From: Candidatus Heimdallarchaeota archaeon
Lineage (GTDB): Archaea > Asgardarchaeota > Heimdallarchaeia > Heimdallarchaeales > Heimdallarchaeaceae
Direction of reading: 5' to 3'
Assembly: GCA_023705945.1 (NCBI GenBank)
Contig: BPTM01000193.1
Location: 1-36,276, forward strand
DNA length: 36,276 nt
The translations under genes and the position numbers were made by a program. The notes under the pieces were generated by a model. The model searched no databases and was not told where the DNA came from. It worked only from the letters and a program-made list of their open reading frames with translations. Each line of letters begins with the position of its first letter. Positions within the stretch are counted from its first letter, which is position 1. Below, in pieces: positions 19,659 through 28,827 of this stretch.

Positions 19659-20180
19659 AGTTAGAACGGTTTTATTGTTATAAAAAATTAATGTTACTCC
19701 AAATTGATTGTATTGCGGTTCTTTATATACTATTTTTTCTAGATTAGAAAAATTAAGCTATTGTCAGCAATATGGATTCGTGTTAATGATTCTTTAATTC
19801 TCAAGAAAGTCTCACCCACATACTTTTTACTTGCATCTAGAACATTTTTTTGGGTTTGTATTAAGGAGAGCTTATTAGAAGACAGCTCTACTTACAGATA
19901 TTAGTTCTCTTTTTCCTAAGGACCTTCTTGTATCGGGCTCCTTACAAGAAGAGTACCCTATTTACAGCAAAAAGAAAACTCTACCCTATTCACTATTCAG
20001 ATAGCTCTAAACCATAAATTGGTTTATTGTTTCTCTTCACTCGCTATTAAATTGTTTAGATCTGTTTCTAGAGAAGCACCTAGATATACCTTACAAGAAG
20101 CTGTTCACCAAAAAATAACAAAGAAACCTTACAAGAAGGGTACTTACCAACAAGGTCATAGTGAAACCCATATCACTATA

Positions 20181-20200
20181 TTTCTAGAAAAAGTGAGACA
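20181..20200 (+). repeat. 20-bp direct repeat tttctagaaaaagtgagaca, copy 1 (runs into hairpin TGAGACA-AGAAAA-TGTCTCA, 20194-20213)
   Basis: Identical 20-mer at 20317-20336; each copy's 3' end forms the left arm of a different hairpin. Confidence 0.8.
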
Positions 20201-20316
20201 AGAAAATGTCTCAACAACCTATATTTTTGAAAAACAGATTTTAGAAATTATACTAGCTAATTTTAACAATTTTGAGGTTTCAAAGGTTCTTATTCAAGAG
20301 ATTAGCGATTTTATTA

Positions 20317-20336
20317 TTTCTAGAAAAAGTGAGACA
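20317..20336 (+). repeat. 20-bp direct repeat tttctagaaaaagtgagaca, copy 2 (left arm of AAAAGTGAGAC/GTCTCACTTTT, 20325-20372)
   Basis: Identical 20-mer; 11-bp perfect inverted repeat with its right arm at 20362-20372. Confidence 0.8.
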
Positions 20337-20395
20337 TTTTCCCTACCTGTCTGTGTCTCTTGTCTCACTTTTCCAGCTTGTTGGCTGAATGTAAT

Positions 20396-20422
20396 TATCT
20401 GCGTAAGCAATTTGCTTACTCA
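20396..20422 (+). repeat. 27-nt hairpin-containing repeat tatctgcgtaagcaatttgcttactca
   Basis: Inner GTAAGCA-ATT-TGCTTAC hairpin; near-identical to copies at 20429-20455 and 23440-23466. Confidence 0.75.
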
Positions 20423-20428
20423 TCTTAT

Positions 20429-20458
20429 TATCTGCGTATACAATTTGTTTACTCAGCT
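20429..20458 (+). repeat. 30-bp repeat tatctgcgtatacaatttgtttactcagct
   Basis: Identical to 23440-23469, about 3 kb away. Confidence 0.85.
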
Positions 20459-20487
20459 ATTTAGGATCAATCCCCAATTTGTAGGAG

Positions 20488-21813
20488 TTGGTTTTCTTGA
20501 CTAAAGCCTTTTATTTAACTGAATCTATTATCTCCACTATTCACGAAGCTAGTTACAAGCTTACTTGTGGGGAAATCGTTAAAGCTATTAAACAACTTCA
20601 ACTTGATAGTAATTCTGATAGTATTAGAAGGATTTTAACAAGATTAGTAAGAAACCCCAACTATTCTATAGCTCGAACAGAAACTAGGCCATACCTGTAT
20701 TACTATTCTAAAGCTGAACAAATAGAACAGATTCCTTATGAGCTAGATTCCTTTTTTGATTCTAATGAACCTTTATTCATTCATCGAATAATAATTATGC
20801 TAAGAAACCTACTCATTAAGAGAGATGAAAAACTAGCTCTACCTTTCTTGAATCTTTCAAATCCAATTAGATTCACTTTTTACAAAACTACTCAAAGTAT
20901 TAGAATAGATCTCAAATGCAGTGGTGGTTGGAAGAAAGCTCTAGATATTTATCTATTCAATGCTTTGATAGCTGCTGTTGAAACTGTATTACACCTGAAA
21001 GAAATCAGCTGCAGTCGTGATAAAATGAGGATAATCAATTGCGATTTAAACAACGATAAAGATTTTCTGAGAATAGCAGGAGCTAATTATGTTAGTGTTC
21101 AAGCATTTCAAAATCTTCTCTTAACAGCTTATAATAAGAAAGAAGGATTACGAAAAGAAGCTCAATTAAGCAATGTAGATATCCCTGTTGATAGAATGAT
21201 TATACAGCTTCAAAGAAATGCGTTAGAATTGGGTATAGGTACTGTATTTAACAGAACCAATACTTTGTTAAGCCAATTTGCAACCTCTTACAATCAAAGC
21301 ATGTCCAAATTTAATTTTGTATTAAATCAAGGCATGTCTAAATTTAATTCTGTATTAGATTATAATCAAAAGGTTGTCCAGCAGCTAGATTCTAATTTCT
21401 ACAATTATAACAAAGATATGAATCAGGTAGCTCAATTACAATCGCAATTAGCTGTTAATGATCTAATGCTGCTTCAAAAAATGGATAACCAAACAGAACT
21501 TATTCTGGACCATGATAGTAATATGAAAAAGGAAAGCAACTTTTTAGCTGAAGAAATACAGATTCTCAAAGTGGTTAGTACTAATCAAGCTAGGAGTGAA
21601 TCCTTACAAACAACAATACTTGGTTTACTGAAAGAAAAAGATTATCCAATCCAGGAGCTTGAAACAGCTTTACAGCTAGACTACAAGCGGATATATTATC
21701 ATATTAGAAAGCTGTTAGACTTAGGAAAAATAACAGCTTACAAAGAAGTAAGAACAGGAAAAGGAGCTAGAAAAAATATTTACAAAATAAAGGAAGGTGG
21801 TGAATCTGGCTGA
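20488..21813 (+). CDS. Uncharacterised protein with N- and C-terminal winged-helix-like domains (DNA-binding; possible replication/partition/regulatory protein of the island)
   Basis: N-term SIISTIHEASYKLTCGEIVKAIKQLQLDSNSDSIRRILTRLVRN and C-term LQTTILGLLKEKDYPIQELETALQLDYKRIYYHIRKLLDLGKITAYKEVRTGKGARKNIYKI look like wHTH. Long helical middle. TTG start. Confidence 0.65.
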   Translation: MVFLTKAFYLTESIISTIHEASYKLTCGEIVKAIKQLQLDSNSDSIRRILTRLVRNPNYSIARTETRPYLYYYSKAEQIEQIPYELDSFFDSNEPLFIHRIIIMLRNLLIKRDEKLALPFLNLSNPIRFTFYKTTQSIRIDLKCSGGWKKALDIYLFNALIAAVETVLHLKEISCSRDKMRIINCDLNNDKDFLRIAGANYVSVQAFQNLLLTAYNKKEGLRKEAQLSNVDIPVDRMIIQLQRNALELGIGTVFNRTNTLLSQFATSYNQSMSKFNFVLNQGMSKFNSVLDYNQKVVQQLDSNFYNYNKDMNQVAQLQSQLAVNDLMLLQKMDNQTELILDHDSNMKKESNFLAEEIQILKVVSTNQARSESLQTTILGLLKEKDYPIQELETALQLDYKRIYYHIRKLLDLGKITAYKEVRTGKGARKNIYKIKEGGESG

Positions 21814-22252
21814 ATTACTTCTCTATTATTGCGAATGTTGTGATGCTCATTATTCTCTTGAAGAATTTCTTTCTCATAAAGAAAAAGATTCTCCTGTTAT
21901 TGATTCTCTCACTGTAACGACTTCTTTACCTTTATGGGATTGCCTTCAAGAAGATTTAGATTTTAATGATCCTGTAAAAATGGTTGTTTGGTCTAAATTT
22001 AGTAATATGAAAGCTGAAATAGAGCTAATACAAAACAAACAAATTGGGAATATAAGTGGTTTCTACAAATCTGCTCTAGCTCAAGATATCCCAACTAACA
22101 AAGTTCGTTTATCCTGGTTGCTTAAAAACCTCTACAAATTTGGCTATCTTCATCGAGTAGAACAGCAATTTAGAAACAAATCCTTTTTCATTTATTTTCT
22201 TGCTGGTGTAGATTCAACAATTCTGGAGAAACTTTCTTCACTTGATGACTAA
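21797..22252 (+). CDS. Uncharacterised small protein (possible wHTH), translationally coupled to the upstream gene
   Basis: Overlaps the previous ORF by 17 bp. YYCECCDAHYSLEEFLSHK Cys/His cluster near the N-terminus; C-terminal KVRLSWLLKNLYKFGYLHRVEQQFRNKSFFIYFL wHTH-like. Confidence 0.55.
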   Translation: MVNLAELLLYYCECCDAHYSLEEFLSHKEKDSPVIDSLTVTTSLPLWDCLQEDLDFNDPVKMVVWSKFSNMKAEIELIQNKQIGNISGFYKSALAQDIPTNKVRLSWLLKNLYKFGYLHRVEQQFRNKSFFIYFLAGVDSTILEKLSSLDD

Positions 22253-22263
22253 TTCTTAAAAAG

Positions 22264-22283
22264 TTGTAAAGGAAGCTTTACAA
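22264..22283. terminator. Hairpin TTGTAAAG-GAAG-CTTTACAA just after the 22252 stop codon
   Basis: Perfect 8-bp stem 12 nt after the stop; terminator function is only inferred. Confidence 0.35.
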
Positions 22284-22367
22284 AAAGCCACAGCCCCCCA
22301 AAGATGAATGAATGAAGCTTTTGGTTTTTCTTCCTTCTCTTGATAGTTGGTTTCTCTTCCCTTCAGG

Positions 22368-22463
22368 GTTTCACTTCTACTTAGTTAGAACAAAATCTTT
22401 TCTAAGTATTCTTCTAAAGTATCTTCTAAACCTGTTTCACTTCTACTTAGTTAGAACAAAATC
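22368..22463. repeat. CRISPR-like pair: 30-nt repeat GTTTCACTTCTACTTAGTTAGAACAAAATC x2 with a 36-nt spacer
   Basis: Exact copies at 22368-22397 and 22434-22463. Confidence 0.7.
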
Positions 22464-22471
22464 AAAATGCA

Positions 22472-22494
22472 ACAGTGTCCAAAATGGACACCGT
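22472..22494. repeat. Hairpin acagtgtccaaaatggacaccgt (family H2, copy 1)
   Basis: GTGTCCA-AAA-TGGACAC stem; related copy acggtatccaaaacggacaccat at 23396-23418. Confidence 0.7.
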
Positions 22495-22725
22495 TTTAGA
22501 AACTTAAATCTTTCAAGAACTCTCGAGTGAAATGGTCTCATTCTGCGGTTTAGTTTCTGAATCATTAGCTTTTTTGCTAAAAAAATAACAAAATCCAATT
22601 AGAGATTAAACCACTCAAGAAAATACTACTAAAAAATTTCAAACCCATAGCTGTCTTACCACACAAACATAAATTTACGTGGTAAGATTTTTTAATCTAC
22701 TTGCTTAACCTGTATTTGAATAGGC

Positions 22726-22920
22726 ATGGCTACTAAACAGATCCAGAAAAGGAAAGACCAACTTTCCACAGGAGAGAAAGCCTTCAATCAGCTAGAACCT
22801 AAAGAAAAGACCAAAATTCGTGTTTGTGCTAAATGGAATTTTTATTCTAGAAAATGTCAGAAATGTAAATATAAGCTGATTTGTGCGGACCAATGGGAAA
22901 TAAAAGCACGGTTAGAATGA
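22726..22920 (+). CDS. Small basic Cys-containing protein (possible zinc-binding)
   Basis: ATG-initiated 64-aa ORF with 4 Cys (VCAKWNFYSRKCQKCKYKLICADQ); longest plausible ORF between 22.3 and 26.2 kb. Confidence 0.4.
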   Translation: MATKQIQKRKDQLSTGEKAFNQLEPKEKTKIRVCAKWNFYSRKCQKCKYKLICADQWEIKARLE

Positions 22921-23151
22921 CTTAAAATGCTTGTATTGTCGTTTTAACCTATTTTTAAGCAGTTTTTAGAAAAAAAGAGTTTGATAAGCTCACACTGCTG
23001 AATTATTCTTACTAGCTGTATACTATATGTCACAGCAAAATTTATTCTAGAATGTAACAGAGACTTCAAGCCTTTTTGCCAAACACCTCTAAAGAGATTC
23101 ATCAAATGCAACACAAAAGGTGTTGTTTTACGAACAACCCCTTCATCATTG

Positions 23152-23272
23152 ATTAGAACTAAAGCCATTATGATTCATCAATTGTAACTTGTTTGAATCA
23201 TCGGCTGTACCCACAGTGGGCACAACCGAAGAACAGTTGCATTTACTACCATAATGATTCATCAATTGTAAC
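23152..23272. CRISPR. Two-unit degenerate array of 37-nt repeats (family B), related to the 24544 array
   Basis: Full repeat GTTGCATTTACTACCATAATGATTCATCAATTGTAAC at 23236-23272; copy at 23152-23188 has an eroded 5' half but a 3' half (cattatgattcatcaattgtaac) that differs at one base. The 47-nt gap contains a 27-nt hairpin. Confidence 0.55.
23202..23228. repeat. 27-nt hairpin cggctgtacccacagtgggcacaaccg (family H1, copy a)
   Basis: Near-full-length stem with two A.C mismatches and a single-base loop. Confidence 0.8.
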
Positions 23273-23395
23273 TACCTGCATAGACAGATTGTCTACACAG
23301 GCCAGAAAGCTAATCTTTCCAGAGATTTGCTATTAGCCGTCTTCTAAAGAATATGTTTAACAGTAAAAATGAGCTATTTTTTAAAGATAATTCAA

Positions 23396-23418
23396 ACGGT
23401 ATCCAAAACGGACACCAT
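23396..23418. repeat. Hairpin acggtatccaaaacggacaccat (family H2, copy 2)
   Basis: Homologous to the hairpin at 22472-22494. Confidence 0.65.
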
Positions 23419-23439
23419 TACATTAAGTAGTTTAGATCA

Positions 23440-23469
23440 TATCTGCGTATACAATTTGTTTACTCAGCT
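23440..23469 (+). repeat. 30-bp repeat tatctgcgtatacaatttgtttactcagct, distal copy
   Basis: Identical to 20429-20458. Confidence 0.85.
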
Positions 23470-23474
23470 TACTC

Positions 23475-23570
23475 GTAAAACCTCTACTTAGTTAAGCTAG
23501 AACAAAGTATGGTTGTACCCACTGTGGGTATAACCATAGAAGTAAAACCTCTACTTAGTTAAGCTAGAAC
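23475..23570. repeat. CRISPR-like pair: 29-nt repeat GTAAAACCTCTACTTAGTTAAGCTAGAAC x2 with a 38-nt spacer made almost entirely of a hairpin
   Basis: Exact copies at 23475-23503 and 23542-23570; spacer aaagta-tggttgtacccactgtgggtataacca-tagaa. Confidence 0.7.
23510..23536. repeat. 27-nt hairpin tggttgtacccactgtgggtataacca (family H1, copy b)
   Basis: 13-bp stem with one G.T pair and a single-base loop. Confidence 0.85.
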
Positions 23571-23641
23571 CAAGATCCCCTATGTGCATTAATTGCACCA
23601 ATGATTGGTGTAGTTTTGGGATCATCCATATTCCAGAATCC

Positions 23642-23661
23642 ATTACTCATTTTTGAGTAAT
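23642..23661. repeat. Hairpin ATTACTCA-TTTT-TGAGTAAT
   Basis: Perfect 8-bp inverted repeat. Confidence 0.75.
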
Positions 23662-23953
23662 AATGTCCGTATTTTGGTGTAAATTAGTCCACTTTTCACC
23701 TTTTTTTCCTTCTTTTTCACATAAATCATACCGTTTTTAAATAATCTAAAAACAACGCTTTTCTCGAGTAAAACTGGCTGAAATAATTAAACAAAAACGG
23801 AATCCGCAATATATCCCCTCTATATAGGTATCCTATCGGAACGGACGGATTCTTGGATTCTTCTGAGTAGAGTACAGTATTTATCTCTATATGCTGGAAA
23901 TCGGAAAAATTTCCAACAGTTGCCTTTGACTCAGGCTTTGGAAAAAATCTCTC

Positions 23954-24112
23954 GTATCACCCCCTCTCTTTACACACTTACCCTTTGCGCTTTTTCCTGA
24001 TACGATCAACTTGTCGCTCTTTTTTCAAAAATAATAAAAGTGATCCTCTTTTGAATAAGAATCTTTGAAACAGCAGCAGCACAACACCAGGAAAAAAACT
24101 ATGGGGTGATAC
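23954..24112. repeat. Long-range inverted repeat pair 1: GTATCACCCC ... GGGGTGATAC
   Basis: 10-bp perfect arms at 23954-23963 and 24103-24112. Confidence 0.6.
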
Positions 24113-24333
24113 AACCTAGTTAGTCTAAAATGCAAGAATTGGCATGAACTTAACTAACCGACAGCGAGGGAGTGATATAACTTAACTAGTTTGAAACAAC
24201 AACGACTGTAATACCGACTTTTTACCCAAAAATGAGTTATACTACAATAAAATGAGTTACATAGTGTATATCTGTTCTATGGCGATAAATCGCAATTCAA
24301 CACTAGACAACACCCTTAAAACCCTCGCAAACT

Positions 24334-24462
24334 GTCTTAACCCTCTTCCCCTGCCAATAATTACCCAACAATAAAAAACTCTCGTCTCAAGTCTCTTTCC
24401 CTCGAAGAAAAAATCACTGAAATTACTTAACCAATAATAGAAAAAAGATGGGGGGTTAAGAC
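24334..24462. repeat. Long-range inverted repeat pair 2: GTCTTAACCC ... GGGTTAAGAC
   Basis: 10-bp perfect arms at 24334-24343 and 24453-24462. Confidence 0.6.
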
Positions 24463-24543
24463 GTAAAGTAACAAAGGTTTAAAAGCTGAACGACAGCAAA
24501 CGACAGCACAGGGTTGCATTTAATGCAATTTTAGTATATTCCT

Positions 24544-24963
24544 GTTGCATTTACTAGCTTACTGATTCATCAAATGTAACTTACCAACAGATGGTAATGA
24601 AAAAACAATTGTTGAAGTTGTTGCATTTACTAGCTTACTGATTCATCAAATGTAACAAAGATTTATTTGAATTGGTTACAAATTCAATGCCTTTAGTTGC
24701 ATTTACTAGCTTACTGATTCATTAATTGTAACGCATTCAATGCATTTTTATTATATTTCTTGTTTTCTATACTGTTGCATTTACTAGCTTACTGATTCAT
24801 TAATTGTAACGTAGTGATCACTCAGACAGGTAGAGGCCACATGAAAGAGTGTTGCATTTACTAGCTTACTGATTCATTAATTGTAACGGAATTAACAGGA
24901 TCAGAAATAATGCAACAATGTTTTGAGTTGCATTTACTAGCTTACTGATTCATTAATTGTAAC
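24544..24963. CRISPR. CRISPR-like array: six 37-nt repeats GTTGCATTTACTAGCTTACTGATTCATTAATTGTAAC, five spacers of 39-41 nt; no cas genes in window
   Basis: Repeats at 24544-24580, 24620-24656, 24696-24732, 24774-24810, 24851-24887, 24927-24963. Repeats 1-2 share two substitutions (CATCAAATG for CATTAATTG). Spacers are mutually unrelated. Confidence 0.8.
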
Positions 24964-24964
24964 A

Positions 24965-24991
24965 CCGTTGTACGCACAGTGGTACTAACGG
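24965..24991. repeat. 27-nt hairpin ccgttgtacgcacagtggtactaacgg (family H1, copy c)
   Basis: Directly follows the last 37-nt repeat; full stem if one base is bulged on each side. Confidence 0.7.
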
Positions 24992-25049
24992 AAGAAAAAG
25001 TGCATTTTGATAAGTTTATGATAACCAACATACAAAAAAATACATCTGA

Positions 25050-25071
25050 AACGAAAGATTAACGAAAGATT
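25050..25071 (+). repeat. Tandem 11-bp repeat (aacgaaagatt) x2
   Basis: Two perfect tandem copies. Confidence 0.75.
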
Positions 25072-25159
25072 AAATTGGCTCTAATTTAGAAATAGATATA
25101 TCCCTGTAAAGAAATTTAAGATTTTCATTATTAGAAATTTCCAACAACCTGGTAAGGAT

Positions 25160-25234
25160 CAGATATCAAATGTCAGATATATGTCAGATATCAAATGTCA
25201 GATATATGTCAGATATATGTCAGATATCAAATGG
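25160..25234 (+). repeat. Iteron-like block of 14-bp (cagatatcaaatgt) and 11-bp (cagatatatgt) units in order A-B-A-B-B-A
   Basis: 75 bp fully tiled by the two unit types; last unit ends in gg. Confidence 0.85.
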
Positions 25235-25269
25235 CAGCAAAAATAAAAACCTGTTAATAGAGTATTTTC

Positions 25270-25296
25270 AAGAAACTCAAGAAACCCAAGAAACTA
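25270..25296 (+). repeat. Tandem 9-bp repeats aagaaactc-aagaaaccc-aagaaacta
   Basis: Three copies of aagaaacyn. Confidence 0.75.
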
Positions 25297-25301
25297 AAGT
25301 A

Positions 25302-25398
25302 ACTTTATCACCCCTCTTTTGTTGAATTTCTTTATAACTCTCGAGTGAAACTGCCCAGAGAGGAAGTATAAGAAAAAATATTGTGGGGGTGATAAAGT
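25302..25398. repeat. Long-range inverted repeat pair 3: ACTTTATCACCCC ... GGGGTGATAAAGT
   Basis: 13-bp perfect arms at 25302-25314 and 25386-25398. Confidence 0.7.
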
Positions 25399-25582
25399 GA
25401 TAAAAAGTATAATTCTCCTTTGGATTCTTTGAAACCTTTGTTATTTTTTACTTTGGTGTATTGGTAATATGGTACGTTTTAGATTCTGTATATCATTAGT
25501 TCTTAATAATCAGAAAATATTCCGAGGATTCTTTGTTAGAAGGCTTCTAAAGAAAATTCTCAAATCTGGTGGGGGCTAAAAG

Positions 25583-25735
25583 ATGACTTGGGGCTTTGGT
25601 TCTCCACGAGAGTATAATATTTCAGATGATAATCGTTTCCTTAATGTAACTAAGGAAGTAGCTGAACGTAAAACTCTCAAACTACTTAATTCCATTGCCA
25701 CAAGTTTTGAAATGTACGAGACATGTCATTTTTAA
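25583..25735 (+). CDS. Possible 50-aa small protein
   Basis: ATG preceded by ggtgggggc (SD-like): MTWGFGSPREYNISDDNRFLNVTKEVAERKTLKLLNSIATSFEMYETCHF. Could also be a truncated gene. Confidence 0.3.
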   Translation: MTWGFGSPREYNISDDNRFLNVTKEVAERKTLKLLNSIATSFEMYETCHF

Positions 25736-26255
25736 TACTACTATAAAAGTGTCAAAAACTATCTCTAACAGCATTTTATCGGAATGGTTTAGTATTCATC
25801 ACACAAAACAAAATCGTTAGAATTAGAGTATGAAATCAAATTAGTAAAAAAACTGTCCAAAATTACCTTTTTGAGAGAAAAACGAAAAATTACAATGTTT
25901 CAATTTTACAGTAAAAAAGAAAAAGCAACATGGATTTAATCCATATAAAAAAAGGTTAAGACTTGAAAGTACATCCTTTTGTGTTACATCTATAGATCCA
26001 GCTTTGCAGTAAATGCAATTTATCCTTCCCAACTTGGAATGATGTTTAATCTATTCTCACAGTGTCTAATCAATGGGCAAATTGCCTACGGTTGTAACTG
26101 GTAAATTCTTCAGCTAGAGCCCTAGCCAATTTGGCAATGACTGAAATCTGTAAATTCTTTATAGGACGATAACTAACCTAAAAAACTCTTAAATTCTTCG
26201 CTTAGAGTTAGAAGTAAAAAATCTAGAAAATACAAAACAATATTTCTCAAAAAAC

Positions 26256-26669
26256 TTATCTTCTACGTTTTCTCATTTTTCTATAAAGCTGTCTAAAGAA
26301 ATCTTTCAGCTCATCATATTCATTATCTCTCGTTTGTTTTAGTTTTTCAAGTGATATTGCATCATATTCATATCTTGCATCTTGACTTAGATTCTTTAAT
26401 AGTACATATTTCGTTGTAACTTCCCTTGGAATTAATTTCAATAAGTTTTGCATAGTACTATATCTGTGATTATGACTCCTTGAATGTCTATCCCTTGTTT
26501 TGAGAGGAGCTATTGCAAATACTCTCTCAATGAGATGAACTATCTCATAAAACATTATTGTTATTGCCCATTCAGTATGTTGTGAAAAATTTGAAGTGTT
26601 GAGATTGTAGAATTTTAAGTTTTTTGCAGTAACATTATAATGATCTTTTTCAGCTGGTATAAGTTTCAC
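26256..26669 (-). CDS. HEPN-like small helical protein (candidate RNase toxin or accessory)
   Basis: EWAITIMFYEIVHLIERVFA...RDRHSRSHNHRYSTMQNL...YVLLKNLSQDARYEY resembles the layout of small HEPN-like proteins (helix with FYxxxHxxE, HsxxHxxR, LSQxARY). Confidence 0.5.
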   Translation of the reverse strand: MKLIPAEKDHYNVTAKNLKFYNLNTSNFSQHTEWAITIMFYEIVHLIERVFAIAPLKTRDRHSRSHNHRYSTMQNLLKLIPREVTTKYVLLKNLSQDARYEYDAISLEKLKQTRDNEYDELKDFFRQLYRKMRKRRR

Positions 26670-27100
26670 CTTTTATAAATTCTATGAAATTTAATTCTAT
26701 AGACGTTTATTCTCTCTAATATTAAGACTTCAAGTTCAGCTATTTTTCTTTCCTCTTCAAGAGTTAGTCTGCTTTCAAAATAGTATGTTAAGAGAATTAA
26801 ACCACTATATTCCTCAAATTCTAAGTCATACTTTTGTAATGATTCTATACTATTTACCCTTTTATTCAAAGCTTCTTTAATAAACTCTGACGAACTAGAG
26901 AAATGTTCTTCTTTTTCAAACTCCCACTTCTTAATGTTCATCATTTTTACCTGTTGAGATTCATTTTCTAATTCTTCATATTTCTTAAGAACAGTACCTA
27001 AATCTAATTTTGGAAAATCTGATATTTCTTTAGATTGTTTTACTATCAATGAACATTTATTCTCAGGAATTTCCCAGGTATCAAATGGTTGTTCACTCAT
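26666..27100 (-). CDS. Uncharacterised protein, overlaps the HEPN-like gene
   Basis: 144-aa ORF overlapping the downstream ORF by 4 bp (ATGA-type coupling). Confidence 0.55.
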   Translation of the reverse strand: MSEQPFDTWEIPENKCSLIVKQSKEISDFPKLDLGTVLKKYEELENESQQVKMMNIKKWEFEKEEHFSSSSEFIKEALNKRVNSIESLQKYDLEFEEYSGLILLTYYFESRLTLEEERKIAELEVLILERINVYRIKFHRIYKR

Positions 27101-27104
27101 ATTA

Positions 27105-27755
27105 TCATTTCCTTAAGTATTTTTCAACTATTTCTTGCATTATTTTAATAGGTTCTAGAAATTCTTCAAGATTTTCTTTGCGACAAACTATCTCAAAATT
27201 GTAAAAATCTTTACCAAGCTGATGAACAGGACTAATTCTGATTCCAAACCAATTCTTTGTTATCGCATCCCTATTAGATGCTAGAAAAATTCCGTGTGGG
27301 ATTATTTGTTCCATTCCAAACTTTGAGGATAGTTCATCAAACATTGGAGATTCTATAGTTTCAAGGCGTTCTGTCCAACTAGTAGAGTAAACATTTTGCA
27401 CTCGCCATATTAATTCATAATAGATTATATTTCTTCTAATGTTATAATGAGATTCTGTAAGAACATCGTTAACTTCATTGAAGGATTCTATTATATATTC
27501 ATCATTAGACAATAATTCCAATACTTTATTGTTTGTTTGATATTCTAACTTGAAATTCTCTGTGTCCACAATATTAATTCTCTCTCTAATTAAACGAGTC
27601 TCACCTGTTTGTATTGGAGCTTGAGCTTCATATCCTGCATCATTAAAAGTTTTAAGAAGTTGTATGAAATCTAGAGGAAATAAACAAGACATTGTAATAG
27701 AGACATTATTGATACTAATATCTCCTGGTTTTATTTTTACTAGCGGTTTAGACAT
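27105..27755 (-). CDS. Uncharacterised protein (possibly TIGR04255-like), first gene of the three-gene cassette
   Basis: 216-aa ORF, ATG start, 4-bp gap to the next ORF; overall character resembles TIGR04255-type proteins but this is weak. Confidence 0.5.
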   Translation of the reverse strand: MSKPLVKIKPGDISINNVSITMSCLFPLDFIQLLKTFNDAGYEAQAPIQTGETRLIRERINIVDTENFKLEYQTNNKVLELLSNDEYIIESFNEVNDVLTESHYNIRRNIIYYELIWRVQNVYSTSWTERLETIESPMFDELSSKFGMEQIIPHGIFLASNRDAITKNWFGIRISPVHQLGKDFYNFEIVCRKENLEEFLEPIKIMQEIVEKYLRK

Positions 27756-27954
27756 TGTTTTTCACCATCAATTGCTTATTATCTGAATCTTTTAGATACT
27801 TGTAAATATTCGAAAGTACATATATAGATTTTTTGTATGAAAAATCTTCTTTTTCTTGATTCATGAGTGCGTAAGAATAATTTTAAGGTATGGAAACCTT
27901 TCTTTGTTGGTTATTACCTTCAAACATTTTCAAACAGTTTAACAGCTTACACAC

Positions 27955-28392
27955 TTATCTTTTTTCACCTAGTTTATGCAAAGCTACTCTTATAAATTCT
28001 TGAGGAGAATCATATCCCTGTTCAACAGCTTTCGTTACTACTTCACTCACTAATTCAGGATCATCAATAATGAGAAAATCTATTTCATTAGTTTCCTTTG
28101 TCTCTTTTAACATCTTTTGAATAGCAAGAGCGTATTTCTTTCCTAAATCTGTAACATGGTAAGTATATTCATTTCTGGATTTAATCTTTAACTTTTTTTC
28201 AACAAAAGTAATTTTAGCTAAATCATTCAAACGTTCCCTGATTGTAAAAGTGCTAGTTCTTCTTTTTTGTTTAAGTACTGAAAAAACAATATTGGACCAG
28301 TTTTCATAATTTTTAATTGCTACTGCATACAATACTTCATAGAATCCCTTTCTTGATACTAATTCCATTATATCTATTTTTTTTCCAGTCAT
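27955..28392 (-). CDS. Winged-helix transcriptional regulator with short RHH-like C-terminal tail
   Basis: KGFYEVLYAVAIKNYENWSNIVFSVLKQKRRTSTFTIRERLNDLAKITFVEKKLKIKSRNEYTYHVTDLGKKYA; C-term DSPQEFIRVALHKL. Confidence 0.7.
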   Translation of the reverse strand: MTGKKIDIMELVSRKGFYEVLYAVAIKNYENWSNIVFSVLKQKRRTSTFTIRERLNDLAKITFVEKKLKIKSRNEYTYHVTDLGKKYALAIQKMLKETKETNEIDFLIIDDPELVSEVVTKAVEQGYDSPQEFIRVALHKLGEKR

Positions 28393-28505
28393 TAATGTAC
28401 TTTTTCGCTATTGGTAATAAATTGTTTTGTTAGATAGTTAAATCCGCTATCTATTTCCAATATCTTTAAATAATATCCAAACTGCTATTATTTTGGTGAT
28501 ATAAA

Positions 28506-28709
28506 TTGCCATTGGAAAACAAACTTGAACAATTCAATACACGCGTACCTTCTGAAGTAGCTGAAATTTTTAGAGACTTATGTGAAAAGGAAGGAAAATC
28601 TACTTATGAAAAACTGCAAGATCTGATTGCAGATTTTTGTAGAATCGACCTCAAAAGAGGGTGGGTTATCAAACCCAAAAGCAACCAGGAGAAGAAAGAC
28701 AATGCTTGA
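28506..28709 (+). CDS. Ribbon-helix-helix (Arc/MetJ-like) protein
   Basis: EQFNTRVPSEVAEIFRDLCEKEGKSTYEKLQDLIADFC; TTG start, divergent from the wHTH gene. Confidence 0.6.
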   Translation: MPLENKLEQFNTRVPSEVAEIFRDLCEKEGKSTYEKLQDLIADFCRIDLKRGWVIKPKSNQEKKDNA

Positions 28710-28827
28710 AATGGAAATGGATAAACAGAGTAATATAAGTGAAAAAGAAAGGATACCTGATTTTGTAAATTTGGAAGAGTATAGAAATCTTCTGCGTTCT
28801 CAAAGAAAGGAGCTCCTTCAACATTAA
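28702..28827 (+). CDS. Possible 41-aa partner of the RHH protein
   Basis: ATG at 28702 overlaps the upstream stop by 8 bp (MLEMEMDKQSNISEKERIPDFVNLEEYRNLLRSQRKELLQH). Its 3' part overlaps an antisense gene remnant, lowering confidence. Confidence 0.3.
   Translation: MLEMEMDKQSNISEKERIPDFVNLEEYRNLLRSQRKELLQH

Follow-up and report, generated by a model that had tools for sequence, protein, structure and literature searches.

Is the repeat array at positions 24544-24963 of this contig from a Heimdall-group archaeon a CRISPR array that carries no cas genes of its own, or is it a different sort of locus altogether, in which a conserved element alternates with variable hairpins? The question arose from a preliminary description of the window (the whole stretch of DNA analysed here, 36,276 nt long, which is one entire contig of a genome that is 79% complete), where most spacers of the array were held to be palindromic and the choice was left between an orphan mobile-element array that had taken its spacers from hairpin-rich DNA or transcripts and a non-CRISPR array of hairpin units. 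In what follows, we argue that the locus very probably belongs to a set of Cas-less CRISPR mini-arrays that reside on an integrated mobile element, specific to its genus within the Heimdall group, and are served by Cas proteins in trans.

Four Repeat Clusters in One Non-Coding Stretch

The array, here called array B (24544-24963, minus strand), consists of six 37-nt repeats, reading GTTACAATTAATGAATCAGTAAGCTAGTAAATGCAAC on the minus strand and starting at 24544, 24620, 24696, 24774, 24851 and 24927, and of five spacers, all unique, that measure 39, 39, 41, 40 and 39 nt in that order. Four of the six repeats are identical, and the two on the left, identical to each other, differ from these at two positions (CATCAAATGTAAC / CATTAATTGTAAC). 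The array has the near-identical repeats and the unique spacers of constant length that mark CRISPR, and both its CRISPR-like geometry and every inverted repeat previously listed for it are present in the sequence. Past the last repeat comes a segment of spacer length (24964-25000), which holds a copy of an inverted-repeat family (dyad family 2) at 24965-24990 followed by GTGCATTTT, possibly the remnant of a further repeat. Right of the array, at 25163-25237, lie short tandem repeats of the ATGTCAGATAT type.

Within a 3.3-kb non-coding stretch of the mobile element, array B is preceded by three more repeat clusters that the preliminary description did not list: A (22368-22463), B' (23096-23272) and A' (23475-23570), all assigned to the minus strand. 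Together the four give the element two repeat geometries, 37/39 and 30/36 (repeat/spacer). In array A, two identical 30-nt repeats (22368-22397 and 22434-22463; GATTTTGTTCTAACTAAGTAGAAGTGAAAC on the minus strand) enclose a single 36-nt spacer (22398-22433), and the cluster adjoins a copy of dyad family 3 (AACAGTGTCCAAAATGGACACCGTT, 22471-22495), a family that also abuts the arrays of two relatives, G022 and G009. Array B' runs from a decayed terminal repeat on the trailer side (GATTCATCAAATGCAAC, 23096-23112), which has a counterpart in a third relative, G017, through spacer 1 (23113-23151), an imperfect hairpin (P 0.033 against shuffles for imperfect inverted repeats), a degenerate repeat (23152-23188) and a 47-nt spacer 2 (23189-23235) with a dyad family 2 palindrome at 23203-23227, to the leader-side repeat (23236-23272). 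Directly beside this last repeat, and at the same place in G017, is a copy of dyad family 1 (23275-23300); it is followed by a family 3 copy (GGTATCCAAAACGGACACC, 23395-23416), within sequence that G017, G022 and G009 also conserve, and by another family 1 copy (23440-23465), which lies within 30 nt identical to 20429-20458. Array A', finally, has two 29-nt repeats (23475-23503 and 23542-23570) around a spacer (23504-23541) that consists largely of a dyad family 2 palindrome, 31 nt long and nearly perfect (23508-23538), which G017 lacks.

Palindromes and Chance

Given the weight that had been placed on palindromic spacers, those of array B were compared with shuffled sequences and with 169 control spacers, cas-linked or family spacers drawn nearly all from cas-linked arrays of the same family. 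The longest perfect arms of the five spacers sum to 27 against 21.5 +/- 2.1 in dinucleotide shuffles (P 0.015; P 0.019 against the control spacers), the corresponding values are 0.09 and 0.08 when mismatches are allowed, RNA folding energy does not depart from that of the shuffles (P 0.42), and none of the individual spacers is significant alone. Array B spacers are therefore palindromic only marginally beyond chance, with a content near that of the shuffled controls, and the assertion that most of them are notably palindromic largely falls away. Homologous arrays in relatives point in the same direction, the spacers in G022, G009 and G017 being ordinary and those in G022 and G017 showing no palindrome excess, and the six strongest palindromes of the region all lie outside array B; shuffled copies of the region yield 0 to 4 such palindromes. 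More can be said for the remark that inverted repeats come right after the repeat, since three of the five array B spacers, against 3% of the control spacers, have an inverted repeat of at least 5 bp starting in their first 3 nt, a count reached in 0.1% of shuffles; this test was chosen after seeing the data, on the prompting of that very remark, and its low P is not clean. We conclude that the short palindromes inside array B spacers are mostly due to chance.

A Mobile Element Confined to One Genus

Six genomes of the genus carry the element on which the clusters sit, and in the window it probably extends from 19941 to 28793. Its left edge was placed with the help of an uninterrupted relative: window sequence up to 19943 continues in G009 into unrelated DNA, and homology to the element of G004 begins at 19941. 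The right edge, at about 28793, is set only by the end of homology to G004 and G009. In G004, G005, G009, G017 and G022, the flanking gene and the element are found on different contigs. That the element is mobile is supported by these genome comparisons, namely by the uninterrupted left edge in G009 and by the copies that lie away from the flanking gene.

The hallmark gene of the element (20488-21813, plus strand) encodes a 441-aa protein whose homologues in G004, G005, G009 and G022 are 70-83% identical; its C-terminal winged-helix domain is a weak prediction (HTH_5, E 0.012, below the cut-off), its predicted structure is poor (pLDDT 42), and no relatives of it were found in viral contigs. 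Next come genes for a 151-aa protein (21797-22252, plus strand) that matches no family above the cut-off and for a small cysteine-containing protein (22726-22920, plus strand), part of which is conserved among the copies of the element that were compared, the identity with G022 and G009 being 91% over 100 nt at the nucleotide level. A Pfam scan of the ten element open reading frames in the window detected no cas genes, none of the proteins scanned was recognisable as an integrase, and an Rfam scan of 22200-26300 gave no match up to E 1. The 441-aa gene is retained in G004 and G005, where the stretches examined contain no such array; another copy of the element's non-coding part occurs in G017. 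Several smaller observations belong here: 20277-20336 and 24012-24071 are inverted copies, 80% identical over 60 nt, one ahead of the 441-aa gene and the other in the non-coding stretch; non-coding sequence at 26011-26135 is 91% identical in G017 (contig C277), the shared sequence continuing past the arrays; and a gene with a SIR2 domain, a domain also known from defence systems, lies near the G004 copy of the element (locus L038, 7955-9790).

Kinship with cas-Linked Arrays and Spacer Turnover

Cas-linked arrays of the family include 37-nt repeats with the same 76-78-nt period as in the window, one of them (in G002) adjoining csm2-csm5, cas6, cas1 and cas2 of type III-A and another (in G001) lying near a cas1. 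The window repeat aligns with the type III-A repeat of G002 at a shuffle P of 0.001, and with 30-nt repeats more weakly or not at all (P 0.37 and 0.03). An occurrence of the repeat in standard cas-linked arrays, named beforehand as a finding that would refute the preliminary reading, was observed for relatives of the repeat only, with no identical copy found beside cas genes, and the pattern of the element repeat occurred neither in the other GTDB contigs searched nor in viral contigs. The family's Cas1 proteins fall into two groups, and that of G017, which bears the element, is 63% identical to the type III-A Cas1 of G002 and 25-26% identical to the other group. No cas1 was found in the host genome (79% complete), and a Csm3 model gave no type III-A match in 21 incomplete genomes of the genus.

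The G002 alignment, which holds in the orientation that reads on the minus strand of the window, is also one of several weak signs of the direction of the array. Another is that decay is found at the low-coordinate end of the arrays, and a third is that the ATGCAAC end of the window repeat resembles ATTGAAAC, the usual end of such repeats; the G001 repeat aligns better in the reverse direction, making orientation by alignment ambiguous. Together these signs suggest that array B, and with it the other arrays of the element, is probably transcribed on the minus strand.

Three other genomes hold homologous arrays with divergent repeats, and these show spacers lost or replaced between relatives. 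Beside the same conserved flank, G022 has five repeats, identical in all copies, and G009 has four; three identical spacers are common to both, and one further, internal spacer of G022 is absent in G009. G017 lacks array B altogether and, in the place of window array B', carries another repeat variant in three copies with different spacers; its flanks are 93-97% identical nearest to this position (78% over the stretch beyond array A'). Such differences between close copies of the element imply turnover.

A Likely Target for Array A

The 36-nt spacer of array A matches G009 (contig C22, 5749-5784) at 33 of 36 positions over its exact length, with E 4e-7 in one genome. The sequence lies in a gene for an N4/N6 DNA methyltransferase, and the same contig also encodes another methylase, a helicase and a prophage-type domain; the changes between spacer and target are synonymous or conservative, and relatives of the methyltransferase occur in archaeal viruses. 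Since a weaker match of the same spacer in G129 falls in a different, unrelated protein with a similar acidic motif, we regard the methyltransferase gene as a likely rather than a proven protospacer.

For the five array B spacers, matches stayed at chance level in 228 genomes of the phylum (two candidates scored per genome), in 23 genomes of the family scored more deeply and, for the whole array, among phages and plasmids, and an exact search of viral contigs with the cores of three spacers found none. In genomes of the same genus, spacers B1 and B2 have weak matches that look like chance on reading. G022 spacer 4 matches a TPR-type motif over its whole length (33/39) in the genome to which the window belongs, and also has a match in G020; this was set aside as too generic for a protospacer.

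Hairpins in Spacer Slots

Three dyad families recur in the control regions of the element. Family 1 stands in two tandem copies (CTGCGTnnnCAATTTGnnnACTCAG; 20396-20454, plus strand) upstream of the 441-aa gene and again beside array B' or its G017 counterpart, and its inner arm pairs, 8-18 and 9-17, covary among nine copies. Family 2 is limited to this element among 36 genomes of the order. Three of the four spacers in clusters A, B' and A' are real palindromes, far stronger than those of array B (23113-23151, 23203-23227 and 23508-23538), and two of these three spacer-slot hairpins are family 2 members. The family thus has copies inside a B' spacer (23203-23227), over nearly the whole A' spacer (23511-23535) and, in looser form, just past array B (24965-24990), so that three arrays, which differ in their repeats, have it within or next to a spacer slot; a search of viral contigs for its pattern found none. 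As G017 has a single A' repeat and lacks the palindrome, either the window has gained a repeat together with a palindrome or G017 has lost both. We think it improbable that a process of hairpin insertion into CRISPR-type repeats is at work here, in which, for instance, hairpin DNA of the element itself would be integrated in the manner of Cas1, or that a hairpin-repeat cassette system has developed from CRISPR arrays; if palindromic units in spacer slots were inserted by adaptation machinery, this would be an unrecognised source of spacers. Elsewhere, a family 3 copy on the far side of the G017 stretch (locus L050, 1300-1500) is followed by GTTTCATTTCTTATCACAATG, which resembles a repeat fragment, and the hairpin TCTTACCACACAAACATAAATTTACGTGGTAAGA at 22654-22687 has numerous matches across most genomes of the genus and across G001, and is a dispersed intergenic hairpin, perhaps a terminator or a small repeat element.

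Weighing the Explanations

Had array B been a non-CRISPR array, its conserved 37-nt element would alternate with variable hairpins serving as recombination, partition or structured ncRNA units, and one could point to the strong palindromes that fill three neighbouring spacer slots, to the dyads that stand beside arrays on the same side, and to the small excess of array B spacers, three of five, that start with an inverted repeat. This is quite unlikely, because folding energy of the array B spacers equals that of shuffles, none of the strong palindromes of the region lies inside the array, homologous arrays in G022 and G017 have no palindrome excess, the repeats are kin to cas-linked repeats and array A has a likely protospacer of exact length; the ordinary spacers of G022, G009 and G017, the cas-linked relative of the repeat and the loss or replacement of spacers leave this option of the preliminary description unsupported for array B. 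Its other option, the orphan mobile-element array, is well supported, the element being mobile and free of detected cas genes and its arrays CRISPR-like in behaviour, and a supply of spacers from hairpin-rich DNA is not needed for array B. Very unlikely indeed is a third reading, in which the repeats are iterons in the origin region of the element, bound by the 441-aa protein as its replication initiator: the non-coding stretch is rich in repeats and dyads and adjoins the 441-aa gene, whose product may carry winged-helix domains, yet unique sequences of 39-41 nt, lost or replaced as units, do not occur between iterons, G004 and G005 have the gene and, in the stretches examined, lack such an array, and the repeat again has its kin among cas-linked repeats.

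A dead relic, that is, a chromosomal CRISPR array which the element acquired and which is now functionless and in decay, shares its origin with the explanation we prefer and differs from it in present function. The degenerate repeats of B', the two repeat variants in array B and the failure to detect cas1 in the host genome or a type III-A Csm3 in the genus would all fit; however, each of the two array B variants is uniform, in four copies and in two, the repeats of the G022 array do not vary, and spacers differ between close copies of the element, implying turnover, and we hold the relic to be unlikely. Under our preferred explanation of Cas-less mini-arrays served in trans, Cas proteins provided in trans would process the transcripts from the minus strand and use them, spacers would probably be acquired by a Cas1-Cas2 likewise supplied in trans, and the arrays may target competing viruses or elements, in immunity or in conflict between elements. 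Counting against this explanation are the searches that gave no protospacer for array B, the lack of an identical repeat beside cas genes and of a detected type III-A Csm3 in the genus, the incompleteness of the host genome, and the small excess of array B spacers that begin with an inverted repeat.

Known Mini-Arrays and an Asgard Carrier

Virus- and plasmid-borne mini-CRISPR arrays of the Sulfolobales (SPV1/SPV2) have no cas genes and few spacers, are found at matching positions of related elements with spacers that differ, are accompanied by stand-alone single repeats on other elements and have host-like repeats (PMC6858448), and in each of these respects the arrays described here are similar. 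They differ in their carrier, an integrated Heimdall-group element, and in the presence of two repeat geometries (37/39 and 30/36); reciprocal targeting, a feature of the SPV1/SPV2 arrays, was not found here, and likeness to host arrays rests on the repeats, not on a leader. Viruses of Bathyarchaeia (Chiyouviridae) have two mini-arrays per element, one of them like the host arrays (PMC10848311), as does the window element; they also encode a Cas2-like protein and self-targeting spacers (PMC10848311), neither of which was seen on the window element. Closer by lineage, Heimdallarchaeum has several CRISPR-Cas operons and CRISPR-targeted mobile elements (PMC8813620); that account, in its passages on these systems, describes arrays in Cas operons and no Cas-less array on an element. 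Type VI leader-repeat hairpins (PMC13187072) place a hairpin at the edge of an array, as is the case here; the likeness concerns this position, not pairing with the repeat or a Cas13.

The best reading, then, is of CRISPR mini-arrays of a kind already described for archaeal viruses and plasmids (PMC6858448, PMC10848311), with a mobile element of a Heimdall-group archaeon as their carrier. This extends Cas-less mini-arrays on mobile elements to the Asgard archaea, and a defined integrated element with two repeat geometries makes spacer exchange between elements testable in metagenomes.
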